Origin: Gammaproteobacteria bacterium
GTDB taxonomy: Bacteria; Pseudomonadota; Gammaproteobacteria; HTCC5015
Assembly: GCA_013817245.1 (NCBI GenBank)
Contig: JACDDA010000004.1
Coordinates: 186,001-250,000, forward strand
Length of the DNA stretch: 64,000 nt
Reading direction: 5' to 3'
Positions 48,915 to 57,995 of this stretch are shown one piece after another (position 1 is the first letter of the stretch; every line of letters begins with the position of its first letter). The notes below the pieces were generated by a model. That model was given only the letters and a program-made list of their open reading frames with translations. It did not search any database and was not told the DNA's origin. Both the position numbers and the translations under genes were made by a program.

Positions 48915-51900
48915 TTAAATACCTAATAATTTGCCAAAAGAACTGTATTCCTTGGCCACTTGTTGATTGATTTTAGTCGCTGCACGGTACTTGTCACGTG
49001 CCGCACTCATATCACCTTGGCGATAAGCGCTTAAGGCTAAATTAAGCTTAATACCCCCATCGCTAGGATCGAGCTGTTCAGCTTGGCTATACGCTTCTAC
49101 GGCGCGTTCAAAATCTCCTTTTTGGTAGAAGATATTGCCGCGATTGTTATAAACCGCGCTACTGCCCGGATCACGCTCCAAAAGCTTGTCTAACGATTCG
49201 ATCGCTTTATCATATAAACCATACTTCGCGTAAATAATGCCCACCTGTAAGGCCGCAGTAGAATCCTTAGGATTATTAACCACCAGCATTTCAAAAGGTC
49301 GGACCAAACGTTCTAAACTTTTTTCCAATAACATTCTACGTTCACGTTCGAGTATGGCTTTTGCGCGTTCTGCTTCAGGCAATGCTTCCACATAATCGGT
49401 TTTGGCCAACGTCACTGGCTGATAGGTCTGCCATGCTTGTTTCAAAGGAATAATAGTTAACTGTTTTTTAGCGTCGAAATTTTTAAATTTCTTGGCACCT
49501 TCCGCCCATGACTCCGCAAAACTGGTGGCGACCATGGTGGTTTCTAACGGTATCCAAACTTGATTGTTATAAATAACCAACAAATCTTCGTCAGTGCTAA
49601 TCAAATCTCGATTAGCGGGCGCAACGCCGGTATTAAACATCATGAATACATGACCCGGCGCATCAAGGATGGCGGTTTCAATACCGAAATTTTCCAAGGA
49701 TGCGCTAAACAACACCGACAGATCATCACAATCGCCACTTTTTAATTTCAAACTTTCGCGCGGAAATTGTACGTAATCAATTTGCTCTTCTTTAACGCTG
49801 CTAAATGGATTATTCGGATCCACAACATAACGCAGTCCATGCGCATTGAATAAACCAAACACTGTCATCGAGGTAATTAAATTATCGTTTAAAGGACCAC
49901 GCGCTGGTTTGAACTCATTCACGCCGCGGCGCACAAAATCACGCAAGCTATCATCTTTAGGCGTCACGAATGATCCAACCATATTTAACTCTTTCCAAAC
50001 AATTGCATTTTTACCGTACAAGGTCATTGGTTGAGTAATGCTGACGCTATCATTTTGGCCGTCACGCACAAAACTCAATTTAACTTCGACTTGCACGCCG
50101 GTGTCTTCATCAATATCGAGCACTTTATTATTCAATGCCGCTTTGAGTGATACTTCTTGAATGCTGTTAGCCGCTAATTTCTCAACGGTTACGCTAGTCG
50201 GAAAATCCATATAGCCTTTAATCGTGAACGAAACTGTTAAATTACCAAAGTCAGTCGCACTAACATTACGTAACTTTACCGTGCCGACCGATTTGTCTGC
50301 GTACTGTTTATAGGCTGCAGAAAAAATAGGTTGTAAACGCAAATCTTCTAGCGCCACTTGCGGTGCATTGCTGCTAAATTCCAATGATTTTTTCTTGCCT
50401 GCATAGGCTGCGTCTAATAAAACTTTATTTTCACTGCTAGGATTATATTTAACCGCACTTTCTAATGCTGAAATCGATTCATTAAATAAACGTCGCGCAC
50501 CATATAATTTACCCAACGAAACATAAGCACGGTCATCGGTTTTATTAAGGCTACTGGCCTTTTCAAGATTTACCTTCGCTTCATCATATAAATTATTATC
50601 CAGATACAAATCGCCCAACATCAAATAGAGGCTGGCATTTTGTGGTTTTAAAATAATCGCTGATTTCAAATATTGAATTGCTTCACCTGTTTTGCCGCGT
50701 GCTCTCCCTACTTCGCCAGCTAAAACTAAAACATCGACATTTTTACCGTCTAACTTAATAGCCGCATTCGCAAAATCCGCCGCCGCATTTAATTTACCAA
50801 ACCCTAAAGCCGCCTGAGTAGCCGCTACTTGAGTTTTTGCATCAGCGGGATTCAAGCGCACTGCCGCACTTAAAGCATCGTAAGCAGATTCATATTCCTT
50901 AAGCGCTAAAGACAATAAACCCAGGCGTTGTTGTGCAGCAAAAGAAGCGGGATCGGCTTCTACCGCGCTGATTAATGCTTTGCGCGCATCGCTGTCTTTT
51001 TTCATGCCTACATAAGCATCAGCTAATGCTAACCATGCACCAACGTTAGAAGGTTTTTCACGCGTCGATTTACCTAAAGCAATCACCGCTTCGCCAAATC
51101 GGCCACCGTCTAATTCTATTAAACCCAGTAAATAATTACCTTCACTTGACGTTTCTGGTTCGCCGCCTAACTTAATGGCGATATTTTTTGCTTCCGCCAT
51201 TTTATTAAGCTTAACTAAACTACGCGCGATGCCGAGTTGTGCGTTTATATTGTCAGCGTTCAGCGTTAATGCTTTTTGAAATTTTTGCCGCGCTATTTCA
51301 TATTGAGCTAAATCTAACAAGGTTTCACCGGCTTGCGCCCACAAAGCAGCATCGTCGGGTGCAAGCTGCAATGCACTATCAAATTGCGCTAAGCCTTTAT
51401 CTTTAGCTCCCACTGCAATATAAGCTTCACCTAGTACAAAATTAATTTGCGCATTTTTAGGCGCAAGACGCAAACCCGACTCTAAACAATTAATAGCGCC
51501 AATTGCGTCACCAATTTTTAAACTCAATTTACCGCATTGCAAATAAGCATCTACATTGCCGGTCTGGCCTTTACCCTTAATTAAACCTTGAATCAACGCC
51601 ATCGCTTCAGCGTAATCTTTATTGGCGTAAAGTGCGTTCGCTTGCAGATTAATGCCTTCAATACGAAATTCTGGTGTTTCTGCCAAGCGCGCAAATTCTT
51701 GCACCGCCAAACCATACCGGCCTTGCGCTTGATAAGTTAAACCTAAATAGCGATGCGACTCGGGTTGATTTGGATTTGATTGCAAATCAGCAAATAAGAT
51801 TTTTTCAGCTGCTGCGAATTCACCTTTTGAATAGGCTTTATAAGCCCCTTGAAAAACATCTTCACGCGCAAAAGACAAAGGACCTTCAGTATCAAAACCA

Positions 51901-53935
51901 CTTACTGCTGCTACTTTATAAAAAGATAAGGCCGGTTCGCCCGTTTTATGCTGTACAACTAATTCAGTATCATCTGTTTCTTTAATTAAAGAATACTCGC
52001 CATCTTTATCCTCAGCACTATAGACACGGAACTTAGCCACATAACTACCTGCTGCACGCTGCCAATTTATTTTGGCTTTTTTAACACCACCTGCTACTTC
52101 TAAACCACCCACACGCGGCGGCACTTGCAAATAGTTATACGTAATAACACCTATACGTTTTTTATCACCTACGTCAAAAATACCGACGACAGTTTTGTTT
52201 GATAAGGATACCGATAACGCCACACCTTCTTGCAAACCGTTTTTAGTTTCGCTAATGGCGCCGAATTGAAATAATTTAGTAGGCCCACTATAAACATGCA
52301 CCGCCAAAGGATTGGCCGCTGTCTTCGCTAAGGCATATAAATTATTATCAGCATCAATTGCCAAATCAATAATTTCTTCGAAAGCCGCGGGCGATTTACT
52401 TTCACGCGCTTCACCAATTTCATATAAATAATCTAACTTGTTAGAGAATACGACAATTTTACCTTTACCATTATCCGCCACATAAATATTGCCGTTCATA
52501 TCAACAGCCACTGCAGCGGGTTCTATTAATATTGGTTTTTCTTTATTGTAAACAGCCGGTACCGCATTTAAGAACACGCCTTTTTTAGAAAAAATAGACA
52601 CGCGATGTGCGTCAGCTTCAGCTACATAAATTTTACGTTGTCGTAAATAAATATCACTAGCGCCGCCGAGCTGCCCTTCGCTGCTGCCACTTTCACCAAA
52701 TTCTGTTTTTAATTGTCCGGCCAAACTAAACACTGACACTTTTGCACTATGCAATACTGCGATATCTTCTTCATCAAAAGTAGCGTGTGTCGGTTTTTTA
52801 AATTTAGTGACCAGCACTTTTGTTTCTGCGCCTTGCGCATTTAAAACGCGCACTTGATTAGTACGGGTATTCAGACACAACACCGACAAATCATTCAATA
52901 ATAACCCTGAGGTACAATCCGCTACTACAAAATCAACCTTGCCCATGCTCGACAACCAAGCACGCGCCGGTGTTTCAACATTTGATTTACTGAGTTGATA
53001 AACATCTATTTTACGCAAATCATTATCAGCAACCGCCATGCGGTCATCTTTAATGGTTAAGGCTGATACTTCTTGATACTGACCGGGGCCATCGCCACGA
53101 CTACCAAAACTGAAAACAACTTTACCTTGCTCCCAATCCAGCTCAACGATTTTACCCGCAGCGCTATTCACAAAAAATAAACGACCCGCTGGATCAACCG
53201 TCAAGGCGGTGATCGATAATTTATCGTCGATTAATTTTTTTAAAGCTAGAGCATCATAACGTTTTAATAATTCGCCATTATCTTTGTAAACACTGATCCG
53301 TGGCGTCGTGCCGGATTCCAATACATAGACACGTTCGAGCAAATCCACGCCTACGTGTGTAGGTTTAGACAACAACTGCGTTTTATCAGCAACTTGATCG
53401 CCAATCGAATAGAGATACACACCACTGGTACTAAAAACCGAGACACGATCATTACCTGAGTCGGCAACATAAATGCGTTGATTAACAGAATAAGCAATGC
53501 CCTGCGGCGTGCTTAACATGCCAGGCGCCGCGCCTTTTTCCCCAAAAAGATGAATCTTATTGCCGGCCTTATCGAGTAACACGATACGTCGCTCACCCGC
53601 ATTAACTAAAACGCGCTGACCTTGATCAGTAATCGCTAAACCGCTGATTGCATTATTGGTAAATAATTTACCTACCCCCGCTAATGGGGTTGCCTGAATT
53701 TTGCCCGCATCTAACAACAACAGCGCGCCGGTTTTACTATCCGTCGCCCATAAACCTTTCCCATCCGCAGCAAAACTTAAATCAGTGATGAGCTGAATTT
53801 GCGGATTTTCTTTTGTGCCTTTATACGTTTCCAGCAATTCAACTTGCTGTTCAGCCAGTTCCGCCGCCTGCCCCCCCATACCGGCATTAATAACACTAGC
53901 ACCCCTAAGCCGCAGGCCACGTTTATCCGTTTCAT
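48915..53935 (-). CDS. giant NHL / TPR / transglutaminase-like envelope protein, signal peptide out of frame
   Basis: The open frame is 48915-53879 (1654 codons, starting MGGQAAEL), but a Sec signal peptide (MKRINVACGLGV, hydrophobic core, PVW) with GAGAG 8 nt upstream begins at ATG 53935 one base out of frame, meeting the body at a run of seven G (plus-strand 53871-53877). Eight G would fuse them as VWGGQAAEL. Domains: NHL-type propeller repeats (about 30-560), fibronectin-like (about 590-665), TPRs (about 675-1190), Ig-like (about 1210-1320), transglutaminase-like with Cys 1383 (KSGDCDD), His 1408 (APGHVF) and WIPLET near 1442, and C-terminal TPRs (1533-1654). Divergent from moxR-DUF58-tgpA. 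Confidence 0.8.
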
Positions 53936-54087
53936 CACTAATCTCTCACTAATAGGCTAAATTAAACTGTACAAATCATAACAAACTCGCCTTACAAGAG
54001 CATGTATGTGGCTTTTGTTTTTTACCTTTGAATCATCGACAATGGCGCCCTGTCGGATGATGGGTCGAAAAGCGAGGAAGCTCAGTA

Positions 54088-55038
54088 ATGAATGCGGTAA
54101 CAACGGAAAAATGGCAGCCTTTAATCGAAAGCGTGTTAGGTGATATCGACCGCATTGTCTTAGGCAAACGTCAAGAAATTCGCCTCTCTGTCGCCTGTTT
54201 ATTAGCCCAAGGGCATTTATTAATTGAAGATTTACCCGGCGTGGGTAAAACCACCTTGGCGCACACCTTGGCTAAAGTGTTGGGCTTAGACTTCCAGCGC
54301 GTGCAATTTACCGCCGACATGTTACCGGCGGATATTTTAGGCAGCAGCATTTATCATCGCGAACAAAATAAATTTTTATTCCGTGCCGGACCTATTTTTA
54401 CGCAATTGGTGTTAGCAGATGAAATCAATCGCGCTACACCGCGTACTCAAAGCGCTTTATTAGAAGCCATGGAAGAACGACAAGTATCCATCGAAGGTAG
54501 AACTCGACCTTTACCATCACCGTTTTTTGTAATCGCCACGCAAAATCCGCAAAATCAAATTGGCACCTTCCCTTTACCCGAATCTCAGTTAGATCGTTTT
54601 TTAATGCGGGTGGAATTAGGTTATCTAGACGATGCTTCTGAACGGCAATTGCTTAAAGAACAAGATCGACGCGTGTTATTAGAAAACGTCAAACCAAAAA
54701 TTAATGTCGAACAATTATTAAATTTACAATCTGCGGTACGTCAAGTACAGGTCAGCGATGCCTTGCTCGATTACGTGCAACGCTTATTAAATTACACGCG
54801 TCAATCAGGAAAATTTATTTACGGTCTTTCGCCGCGCGCAGGACTTGGCATTAAACACGCGGCGCAAGCATGGGCGTTATTGCAAGGTCGTGCGCATGTA
54901 TTACCCGCTGACGTTCAAATGATTTTACCCAATATTGCCGCGCATCGTTTGCGCACTGCACAACAAGGCGCGATTCATAGCCGCGATATTCAAACACTGC
55001 TGATTAATCACGTCGCGGTTGAGGCCGCGCATGGCTGA
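54088..55038 (+). CDS. MoxR-family AAA+ ATPase
   Basis: 316 residues. Walker A LPGVGKTTLAHTLA, Walker B LVLADEINRATPRTQSALLEAMEERQV (DEINRA), FFVIATQNPQNQIGTFPLPESQLDRF and the C-terminal lid. MoxR ATPases are chaperones that, with DUF58 proteins, help maturation of envelope complexes. GAGGA 9 nt before ATG. First gene of a three-gene operon. Confidence 0.93.
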   Translation: MNAVTTEKWQPLIESVLGDIDRIVLGKRQEIRLSVACLLAQGHLLIEDLPGVGKTTLAHTLAKVLGLDFQRVQFTADMLPADILGSSIYHREQNKFLFRAGPIFTQLVLADEINRATPRTQSALLEAMEERQVSIEGRTRPLPSPFFVIATQNPQNQIGTFPLPESQLDRFLMRVELGYLDDASERQLLKEQDRRVLLENVKPKINVEQLLNLQSAVRQVQVSDALLDYVQRLLNYTRQSGKFIYGLSPRAGLGIKHAAQAWALLQGRAHVLPADVQMILPNIAAHRLRTAQQGAIHSRDIQTLLINHVAVEAAHG

Positions 55039-56002
55039 TAACGCTTTGCAGCAAGCCATGGCGCGTAATTTAGCACGCCGCACGCCTAGTGATGAACATC
55101 ATGTTCAATTGTTATCCCGCAGTATTTATATATTACCGACGCGACATGGTTTATTGTGGGCACTGGTGTTGTTTGGCATGTTGCTATGCAGCATTAATTA
55201 CAGCATTAGTTTAGGTTATGTACTTACGTTTACATTAGCCAGTGCGGCCTTAGTCGCGATGGTATTTACTTATCGTAATTTATGGCAATTGCACATTAGC
55301 GCTTTACCTGCAGCACCCGTGTTTGCAGGCGACACAGTCGCTTTTCGCATGCAGATCCAAGCTCATCATTATTTTCCTCGATTTTTTTATATCGGCGCTG
55401 ATACTGATAAGCTCGACACTAACGAACAACTCGCTATCGTATTGCAAAACGCAGAACGTTATTTATGCACGCTCTCTTTTACTACAAAAAAACGTGGTTG
55501 GTTCGCGTTAGGTAAATTACGCTTACGCAGTTATTATCCATTAGGTTTATTTAATACGTGGGGCTGGGTTAATTTTAAAACGCGAATTTTAGTGTATCCA
55601 AAACCAAGAGATTTTGCTTTAAAGCCGCGCACTGCTAGCGACACTGCGGGTGATGATGAACAAGTGATTATCGGACAAGATGATTTTGCAGGTTTGCGGC
55701 GTTATCGCCCAGGCGATCATTTTTCCCAAATTGCGTGGCGCACCTTAGCAAAAGACCAAGAATTAAGCACCAAAGCTTTCCAATCACCTGCTGCGCAAGA
55801 AATATGGCTGGATTGGACAGCACTTGAAAAATTAAATCACGAAGATAAATTATCGCAACTTTGTTATTGGATTAATTATTATCAAGGAGCAGGCATTCAA
55901 TACGGTTTGCGTTTACCTGAGCAACTTATTTTGCCCGCGTGCAATGACGCGCACCATCGACGTTGCTTAGAAATATTAGCGCTCTATCCTCATGTCACCT
56001 AA
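55031..56002 (+). CDS. DUF58-domain membrane protein
   Basis: 323 residues from ATG 55031, which overlaps the moxR stop by 8 nt; the start four codons earlier lies inside moxR. Two adjacent hydrophobic helices (about 37-80) and a cytoplasmic DUF58 part with FAGLRRYRPGDHFSQIAWRTLAK (RRYRPGD-x-WR). DUF58 is the usual partner of MoxR. It is overlapped by the tgpA start (11 nt). Confidence 0.9.
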   Translation: MADNALQQAMARNLARRTPSDEHHVQLLSRSIYILPTRHGLLWALVLFGMLLCSINYSISLGYVLTFTLASAALVAMVFTYRNLWQLHISALPAAPVFAGDTVAFRMQIQAHHYFPRFFYIGADTDKLDTNEQLAIVLQNAERYLCTLSFTTKKRGWFALGKLRLRSYYPLGLFNTWGWVNFKTRILVYPKPRDFALKPRTASDTAGDDEQVIIGQDDFAGLRRYRPGDHFSQIAWRTLAKDQELSTKAFQSPAAQEIWLDWTALEKLNHEDKLSQLCYWINYYQGAGIQYGLRLPEQLILPACNDAHHRRCLEILALYPHVT

Positions 56003-57995
56003 ACAATTAGGCCAACTATCGCTATCATTTATTCAGCGCCGCGGGATTATTGTGGCGTTACTGGCCAATACCTTGCCCCATCTTACACATTTGCCGCTGT
56101 GGGCAATCGCATTTATTGTTATCACCAGTGCTTTTGTTTTTTTTACTGGCGACGAAGAAAAACCCCTCAATAAATTATTCATCTTAGCGATTGCGCTGGC
56201 AATTTTCGCTTTGCAATGGACTGAATATCGTAGCTTATGGGGACGCGATGCCGGTACGTGTTTTTTATTAATGATGCTGTATTTAAAATTATTTGAATTG
56301 CGTAATTATCGCGATGGCATGATGACGTTGGCCTTAGGTAGTTTTTTACTGATCACGCATTTTTTATTTGATCAAAGCGTACTCTCAGCGCTATATACTA
56401 TTTTTGCTAGCGCGGCGGTATTACTTGCGCTAGCACAATTAAACGCTCCACATAGCGAGCAAAATATTCGCTTATCTTGGCGCGTACATAACAAGATGAG
56501 CGCGTTATTATTGTTATATGCAATACCGCTAATGTTATTGTTATTTATTGCTTTTCCGCGTATTCCCGGGCCTTTATGGGGAATGCCGGAAACATCCAAC
56601 AGCAGCAAGAGTGGTTTAAGCGACACAATGAGTCCGGGTGATATCAACAATCTTGCCTTGTCAGATGATCCTGCGTTTCGCGTAAAATTTGAAAACGAAA
56701 TTCCAGCACGCAATCAACTCTATTGGCGCGGCCCCGTGTTATGGGATTTTGATGGTCGTGCTTGGCGCATTGGCGAACTTTCGCCTTATCGTCCCGATCC
56801 TTTAGATCATGCAGCTCACGCAGTGCGTTACACGCTAACATTGGAACCGCATGATAGACGCTGGTTGTTTTTGTTAGACATGCCGAATCTACAACCCATT
56901 ATACGTAGCACTCATTTAGATAAAACTCGCTTAAATGATGACTATCAACTTATTAGCTTGCAACCTATTGTCTCCGTCAAACAATACACCGCAGAATCTT
57001 ATCTTGATTACAAAATCAATACACAGCTCACTCAACGCGACGCCGATCGAGCGCTCGCACTACCCGCTACAGGCAATCCACAAACACGCGCCTACGCACA
57101 ACGTTTGCGTGCGCTGCATCCCCAAGCGAAAGATATTGTCGCAGCGGCGTTAGAAAAATTTCACGCGCAATTTTTTTATACGCTAACGCCACCCTTATTA
57201 GGCAACGACAGTATTGATGAATTTTTATTTACCACTCAAGCCGGTTTTTGCGAACACTTTGCGAGTAGTTTTGTTTTTATTATGCGCGCCGCTGGCATTC
57301 CGGCACGCGTAGTAACGGGTTATCAAGGCGGGGAATTTAATCCACTCGGAAATTATTTTTTAATAAAACAAGCAGATGCACATGCCTGGGCAGAAGTATG
57401 GTTAGATGATCGCGGCTGGATACGCGTGGATCCCACCGCAGCAGTTTCACCCGATCGAATCCAACTTAATCTCGATGCAGCGTTATCACGCGATACCAAT
57501 CCACGTTATAACGCTATGTTAGAAATGAACTGGTTACGTAAAGCCAGCTTATTACTGGATAGCGGTAAAAACTATTGGAATTATTGGGTGTTAGGCTACG
57601 GCCCAGAATTACAGCAACAATTCTTTAAAGCCTTAGGCATGATGAACATTGATAGCCTGCAGTTAGGCGTTATTAGTATTATTTGCACGATGTTGATCTT
57701 ACTTATTGTCGTTGGTTTGCATTTACGTAAAGCCACAACGCAAACACCTCTCGCTCGCGCCTTTGCTGCACTATTAGCAAAACTTGCAAAAGCCGGCTAT
57801 GAGAAACAACGCAGCGAATGCCCCAGTGTATTTTTAATGCGCTTAGAACGCGAACATGCAGCACATGCGCAACAAGTAAAACCTTTAGTTGAATTTTATA
57901 TTGAATGGACTTATGTAGAAAATGCGAATGCTGCGCAAGCTAAACAAGCAGGACAGTGCTTACAAAAAAGTGTGCGCAAATTACGGCTGCGTTAA
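55992..57995 (+). CDS. tgpA: TgpA-type membrane transglutaminase (DUF3488)
   Basis: 667 residues. About five N-terminal helices (25-200), then a periplasmic transglutaminase domain with Cys in TQAGFCEHFASSF, His in DAHAWAEVW and Asp in RVDPTAAV, and a further helix near 560-582. In Pseudomonas aeruginosa TgpA is an essential periplasmic transglutaminase. It shares TTAA with the convergent DUF1249 gene: the two stop codons overlap. Its substrate here is unknown. Confidence 0.9.
   Translation: MSPKQLGQLSLSFIQRRGIIVALLANTLPHLTHLPLWAIAFIVITSAFVFFTGDEEKPLNKLFILAIALAIFALQWTEYRSLWGRDAGTCFLLMMLYLKLFELRNYRDGMMTLALGSFLLITHFLFDQSVLSALYTIFASAAVLLALAQLNAPHSEQNIRLSWRVHNKMSALLLLYAIPLMLLLFIAFPRIPGPLWGMPETSNSSKSGLSDTMSPGDINNLALSDDPAFRVKFENEIPARNQLYWRGPVLWDFDGRAWRIGELSPYRPDPLDHAAHAVRYTLTLEPHDRRWLFLLDMPNLQPIIRSTHLDKTRLNDDYQLISLQPIVSVKQYTAESYLDYKINTQLTQRDADRALALPATGNPQTRAYAQRLRALHPQAKDIVAAALEKFHAQFFYTLTPPLLGNDSIDEFLFTTQAGFCEHFASSFVFIMRAAGIPARVVTGYQGGEFNPLGNYFLIKQADAHAWAEVWLDDRGWIRVDPTAAVSPDRIQLNLDAALSRDTNPRYNAMLEMNWLRKASLLLDSGKNYWNYWVLGYGPELQQQFFKALGMMNIDSLQLGVISIICTMLILLIVVGLHLRKATTQTPLARAFAALLAKLAKAGYEKQRSECPSVFLMRLEREHAAHAQQVKPLVEFYIEWTYVENANAAQAKQAGQCLQKSVRKLRLR

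Follow-up and report, generated by a model that had tools for sequence, protein, structure and literature searches.

Frame break at the start of a 1654-codon gene

The window, i.e., the whole stretch of 64,000 nucleotides that was analyzed, carries on its minus strand an open reading frame of 1654 codons (positions 48915 to 53879) in which the ORF and orthologue comparisons reveal neither an internal stop nor a second frame break. Upstream of this body, and in another frame, the ATG at 53935 opens a minus-strand ORF of 52 codons (53777 to 53935) that encodes MKRINVACGLGVLVLLMPVWGG; this ORF supplies the n-region and h-region of a Sec signal peptide and then runs on out of frame until its stop. 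A weak Shine-Dalgarno-like element, GAGAG, is located 7 nt before this ATG (53943 to 53947, minus strand). Read on the minus strand from 53940 to 53870, the sequence includes GTG ATG AAA CGG ATA AAC GTG GCC TGC GGC TTA GGG GTG CTA GTG TTA TTA ATG CCG GTA TGG GGG GGC AGG, and the point at which the signal and body frames part is a run of exactly seven G (53871 to 53877). In the signal frame, part of this run forms the heptamer G GGG GGC (53870 to 53876, minus strand), formally a -1 slippery site.

The predicted cleavage motif, based on the sequence and on comparison with the signal peptides of the orthologues, is GQA/AEL, with the GQA codons at 53865 to 53873 (minus strand) in the body frame; here and in all other signal peptides the cleavage marks were placed by eye rather than by a predictor. 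One frame encodes the charged n-region and the hydrophobic h-region, and the other, the body frame, encodes the c-region and GQA/AELAEQQVELLETYK, which would place the junction of the two frames, and hence the break, inside the signal peptide itself. These observations bear out the preliminary description in its essentials, i.e., that the ATG at 53935 begins a Sec signal peptide (its Shine-Dalgarno proving weak), that the body is one base off frame at the seven G, and that a one-base correction restores VWGGQAAEL, as a run of frame-consistent length indeed reads.

Despite being out of frame, the signal peptide starting at ATG 53935 remains a good one by hydrophobicity and charge. When all window ATGs followed by at least 22 open codons were screened for a hydrophobic core and an N-terminus of net charge +2 or more, only 3 of 934 (0.3%, ATG 53935 included) were equally or more signal-like. 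No ATG, GTG, or TTG was found in the body frame between the upstream stop and 53879, and no Shine-Dalgarno was found at the body's own ATG at 53879. Upstream of the tract, codon usage gave no discrimination between signal and body frames (-0.8 against +2.3); since it is neutral between the two, the case for their fusion is built on homology and hydrophobicity.

Orthologues and the predicted protein

Orthologues were gathered from within the organism's own family, class, and phylum, plus one distant named relative (Nitrospiraceae, by contig scan). In each of the 16 whose N-terminus could be read, a Sec-type signal peptide stands in frame at the corresponding position, and the signal-body junction is read through in a single frame. 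Examples are the N-termini MHKSKSQICCKIATSLFIQFFVVHAYA/LDIELIKTF (L005), MYNAPRLRHFLFGALLALGSAHA/DITLD (L067), SVSQA/AISLDKSYKP (L065, end of the signal peptide onward), and MLNSLFFALTFFSVSLFPSSLIA/ANITLEK (L068). The body itself is 39 to 45% identical to the near-full-length orthologues from the class and family, stop-free, and conserved over its whole length with no other lesion. The lack of a conserved signal peptide in relatives, which the preliminary description had named as the outcome that would speak against a fusion, was not what we encountered, and its picture of an envelope protein with an out-of-frame signal peptide gains support from the orthologues, from which export would be expected. 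Fusion of the upstream signal peptide with the body is strongly supported by these comparisons, the ancestral gene start being most likely 53935, and we infer that the protein would be exported and cleaved. A decaying pseudogene was considered and rejected, as the 1654 codons are open and conserved along their length, with no further stops or frame breaks; because the conserved body is intact, the break would be either recent or not real.

An NHL-repeat/beta-propeller region (52260 to 53798, minus strand) was recognized by Pfam NHL and DUF5128 and a TPR array (50400 to 51842, minus strand) by Pfam TPR families, both with approximate limits. The best-conserved region, residues 1176 to 1530 (49290 to 50354, minus strand), is transglutaminase-like and has 58 to 60% identity to the class orthologues. 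C1384 (in SGDCDDLS), H1410 (in PGH), and E1446 (in IPLE) are invariant in six sequences, and we read them as a putative transglutaminase-like triad of the papain fold. The Pfam matches for this region, DUF553 (E 0.04) and Transglut_core (E 0.08), were both below the curated cutoff, a structure model of the domain built without an alignment had a pLDDT of 36, too low for use, and a search of PDB sequences with the profile of six sequences returned one weak match (E 0.025), to a protein other than a transglutaminase. The window contains, at 49290 to 50354, a highly conserved C/H/E region captured by no Pfam family above cutoff.

We also considered the anti-phage protein ProA (NCBIfam NF058533) and rejected it, the match consisting of a single domain hit of 39.8 bits (residues 1197 to 1504) versus a curated cutoff of 1500 bits and covering one end of ProA only. 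A literature search on this lead found nothing, and a PADLOC search gave weak TPR/AAA matches only. The product would be a secreted, probably periplasmic, NHL-propeller/TPR/transglutaminase-like protein.

The gene is flanked by a divergent plus-strand set comprising a MoxR-like AAA ATPase (54088 to 55038; Pfam AAA_3, E 1.5e-62), a gene with a weak DUF58 match (55019 to 56002; E 8.8e-4, below cutoff), and a TgpA-type transglutaminase (55992 to 57995; TgpA_N, E 1.8e-77, and Transglut_core, E 1.4e-25). The orthologue in genome G003 is likewise flanked by a divergent MoxR-like AAA gene, named from its sequence. A promoter scan upstream of the gene found no promoter. The protein may have a periplasmic role beside the TgpA cluster. 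The arrangement recalls the PFNA-type cluster, in which MoxR ATPase, DUF58, and transglutaminase genes adjoin a large multidomain protein (PMC8430577). Here, in contrast, the partner is NHL-TPR-transglutaminase-like and divergently transcribed, the likeness is one of neighborhood only, and the immediate neighbors tested included no kinase gene.

G runs in the host genome

In the genome to which the window belongs (G000, 2.27 Mb), runs of exactly six G number 41 and genuine runs of seven number 12, and a genome-wide search found no genuine run of at least eight. The sole longer G run is a G82-N10-C12 sequence at a scaffold gap (contig C2, 156160 to 156263; L075, 1161 to 1264), probably a poly-G dark-cycle artifact of two-channel short reads that was carried into the assembly. 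Long-read error, a concern of the preliminary description, fits less well with a gap of this kind, which suggests two-channel short reads.

Besides the run in the signal peptide there are 11 other runs of seven G, 7 coding and 4 intergenic. All 7 coding ones are in frame, as are all coding A/T runs of 7 to 9 within the window, and homopolymer runs, true G7 included, are generally called correctly; general indel noise in the assembly was discarded as an explanation on these grounds. The genes bearing G7 runs include what we take, from reading their sequences, to be aceE (contig C7, 35957) and the genes of a CHASE2-like and an alpha-2-macroglobulin-like protein; another G7 run lies at 198288 of contig C5. 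The in-frame state of the 7 other coding runs indicates that G7 calls are generally sound and does not address the reading of a G8 as a G7, since G000 contains no G8. In each of the 31 relatives scanned there were 2 to 59 runs of at least eight G, and G000 is alone in having none that is genuine, a comparison uncontrolled for base composition. Extrapolating from the 41 G6 and 12 G7 runs, we would expect about 2 to 5 longer ones in G000, so that zero is mildly suspicious. Both mutS and mutL are intact in this genome.

Three loci in G000 were recorded as separate observations. In a gene that we read as alpha-2-macroglobulin-like (L081, contig C8, 21296 to 21302), seven C on the coding strand directly follow the signal peptide (SSAAAPPRAF), in frame. 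L082 (contig C9, 1 to 1735) encodes a repeat-rich surface-type protein with a tail (SGGGS, a hydrophobic stretch, and RKK) that resembles a GlyGly-CTERM sorting signal. In L083 (contig C12, 3600 to 5700), a variable C-terminal tail comes after what resembles the end of an RHS core (LKRFISSDPIGLAGG), and a G7 run lies where this tail begins.

Possible causes of the frame break

The likelihoods that we assign to the possible causes are our own judgement and were not computed. We consider it probable that the break is a sporadic one-base change, i.e., a consensus error or a recent slip, in an otherwise intact gene and not an evolved switch, as supported by the signal peptides of all 16 readable orthologues, the lack of a G/C run of seven at that place in the relatives, and the lesion-free body. 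According to this proposal, the gene would normally begin at ATG 53935, and a one-base change in the length of the G run, located by chance at the c-region, would part the signal peptide from the body. Either the consensus miscounted the run, which we slightly favor, or a slippage mutation may have arisen recently in the sequenced cells and now block export. In the GeneTack survey, a frame break found in a single species is a "singleton," usually due to an indel or an error (PMC3711429). Such singletons resemble the present case in that a homology-supported break occurs in one genome only, attributable to a recent indel or to an error of sequencing (PMC3711429), and differ from it in that here the break is inside a signal peptide and the main ORF stays open, so that the pseudogene flag is missed.

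An error of consensus or assembly, with the true run in frame and the gene exported as normal, is our tentative first choice, still short of being the likelier half of the cases. In its favor are a genome devoid of genuine G8+ runs when every one of the 31 relatives has some, a flaw confined to one position of an otherwise flawless gene, and the G82-N10-C12 gap artifact. Two-channel and MGI instruments have reduced reliability at 8-mers, dramatically so for G8 on one instrument (PMC11140927), and this weakness of two-channel instruments points the same way. The in-frame state of the 7 other coding G7 runs and of the window's coding A/T runs of 7 to 9 argues against it, however, and the deficit of longer runs has to be read against uncontrolled base composition and an expectation, by our extrapolation, of only a few.

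A frameshift that really occurred in the sequenced cells, through recent replication slippage, and that would have turned export off by accident, is also possible, if more doubtful. That G7 calls are sound elsewhere, that G runs are natural indel hot spots, and that the body has not yet decayed are all consistent with it, but the same absence of visible decay can be held against it, and mutS and mutL are intact.

The preliminary description had offered phase variation as one of its two readings, by which an evolved tract toggles export of the giant NHL-TPR-transglutaminase-like envelope protein through slipped-strand mispairing. What stands of it is that the 5′ coding G7 (53871 to 53877) sets the frame between a signal peptide and a body that are both intact, in a product of exported type. 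The pilC proteins of Neisseria are not known to be related to the protein of the window. Their genes offer the closest parallel, as pilC1 and pilC2 each encode a large exported protein and have a poly-G tract in the part that codes for its signal peptide, where a one-base change parts the signal and body frames just as here (PMC13190605). This shared position with pilC, a real switch, counts against a sporadic break. The pilC runs, however, are of 9 to 20 G (PMC5953494), differ in length from strain to strain, and are among several genes that switch, whereas the present run has seven G, stands alone, and is absent from relatives. Seven is below the usual variable range of 8 to 9 or more G (PMC5953494, PMC5084427), and it is runs of at least eight that are mostly found to be variable (PMC5084427). 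The same-site comparison with related genomes raised by the preliminary description gave no G/C run of at least seven in the N-termini of any of the 16 orthologues, the nearest of which is only 45% identical, a distance at which a tract confined to the species would go unseen. Because G000 is without genuine G8+ runs, it lacks a contingency-locus repertoire, and its MutS and MutL are present and intact. Phase variation is thus weakly supported, and we regard it as unlikely.

Still less probable is recoding, in which some of the products would have signal and body fused, either by a -1 shift of the ribosome at G GGG GGC or by slippage of transcription on the run. The heptamer has the form X XXY YYZ, and shifting by -1 on it yields exactly VWGGQAAEL, but the 70 nt of downstream RNA are no more structured than shuffled sequences (z -0.60, pseudoknots left out) and the site is unconserved in the orthologues. 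Published work on selection against bacterial transcriptional slippage dealt with A/T runs, where such selection shows at a length of about nine (PMC1088944), which is also a point against slippage on this shorter G run. Chance or some other cause seems to us highly improbable. This includes the reading hardest of all to credit, a leaderless cytosolic protein that truly starts at 53879 below a signal-like frame arisen by chance: the body has its own ATG and upstream codon usage is neutral, but that ATG has no Shine-Dalgarno, all 16 readable orthologues are of exported type, and so strong a signal-like start occurs at only 0.3% of the open ATGs in the window.

Under the preferred reading of a sporadic break, the main import is for annotation. 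As the preliminary description anticipated, automatic annotation would yield a leaderless 1654-residue protein, and a conserved exported protein would be entered as cytosolic; because it does not interrupt the main ORF, a break inside the signal peptide escapes pseudogene flags. The biology otherwise looks ordinary, with a gene start that would be misannotated. If, on the other hand, the run proved to be a true mixture of lengths, it would represent a pilC-like export switch acting on an uncharacterized envelope protein beside a MoxR-DUF58-TgpA cluster.
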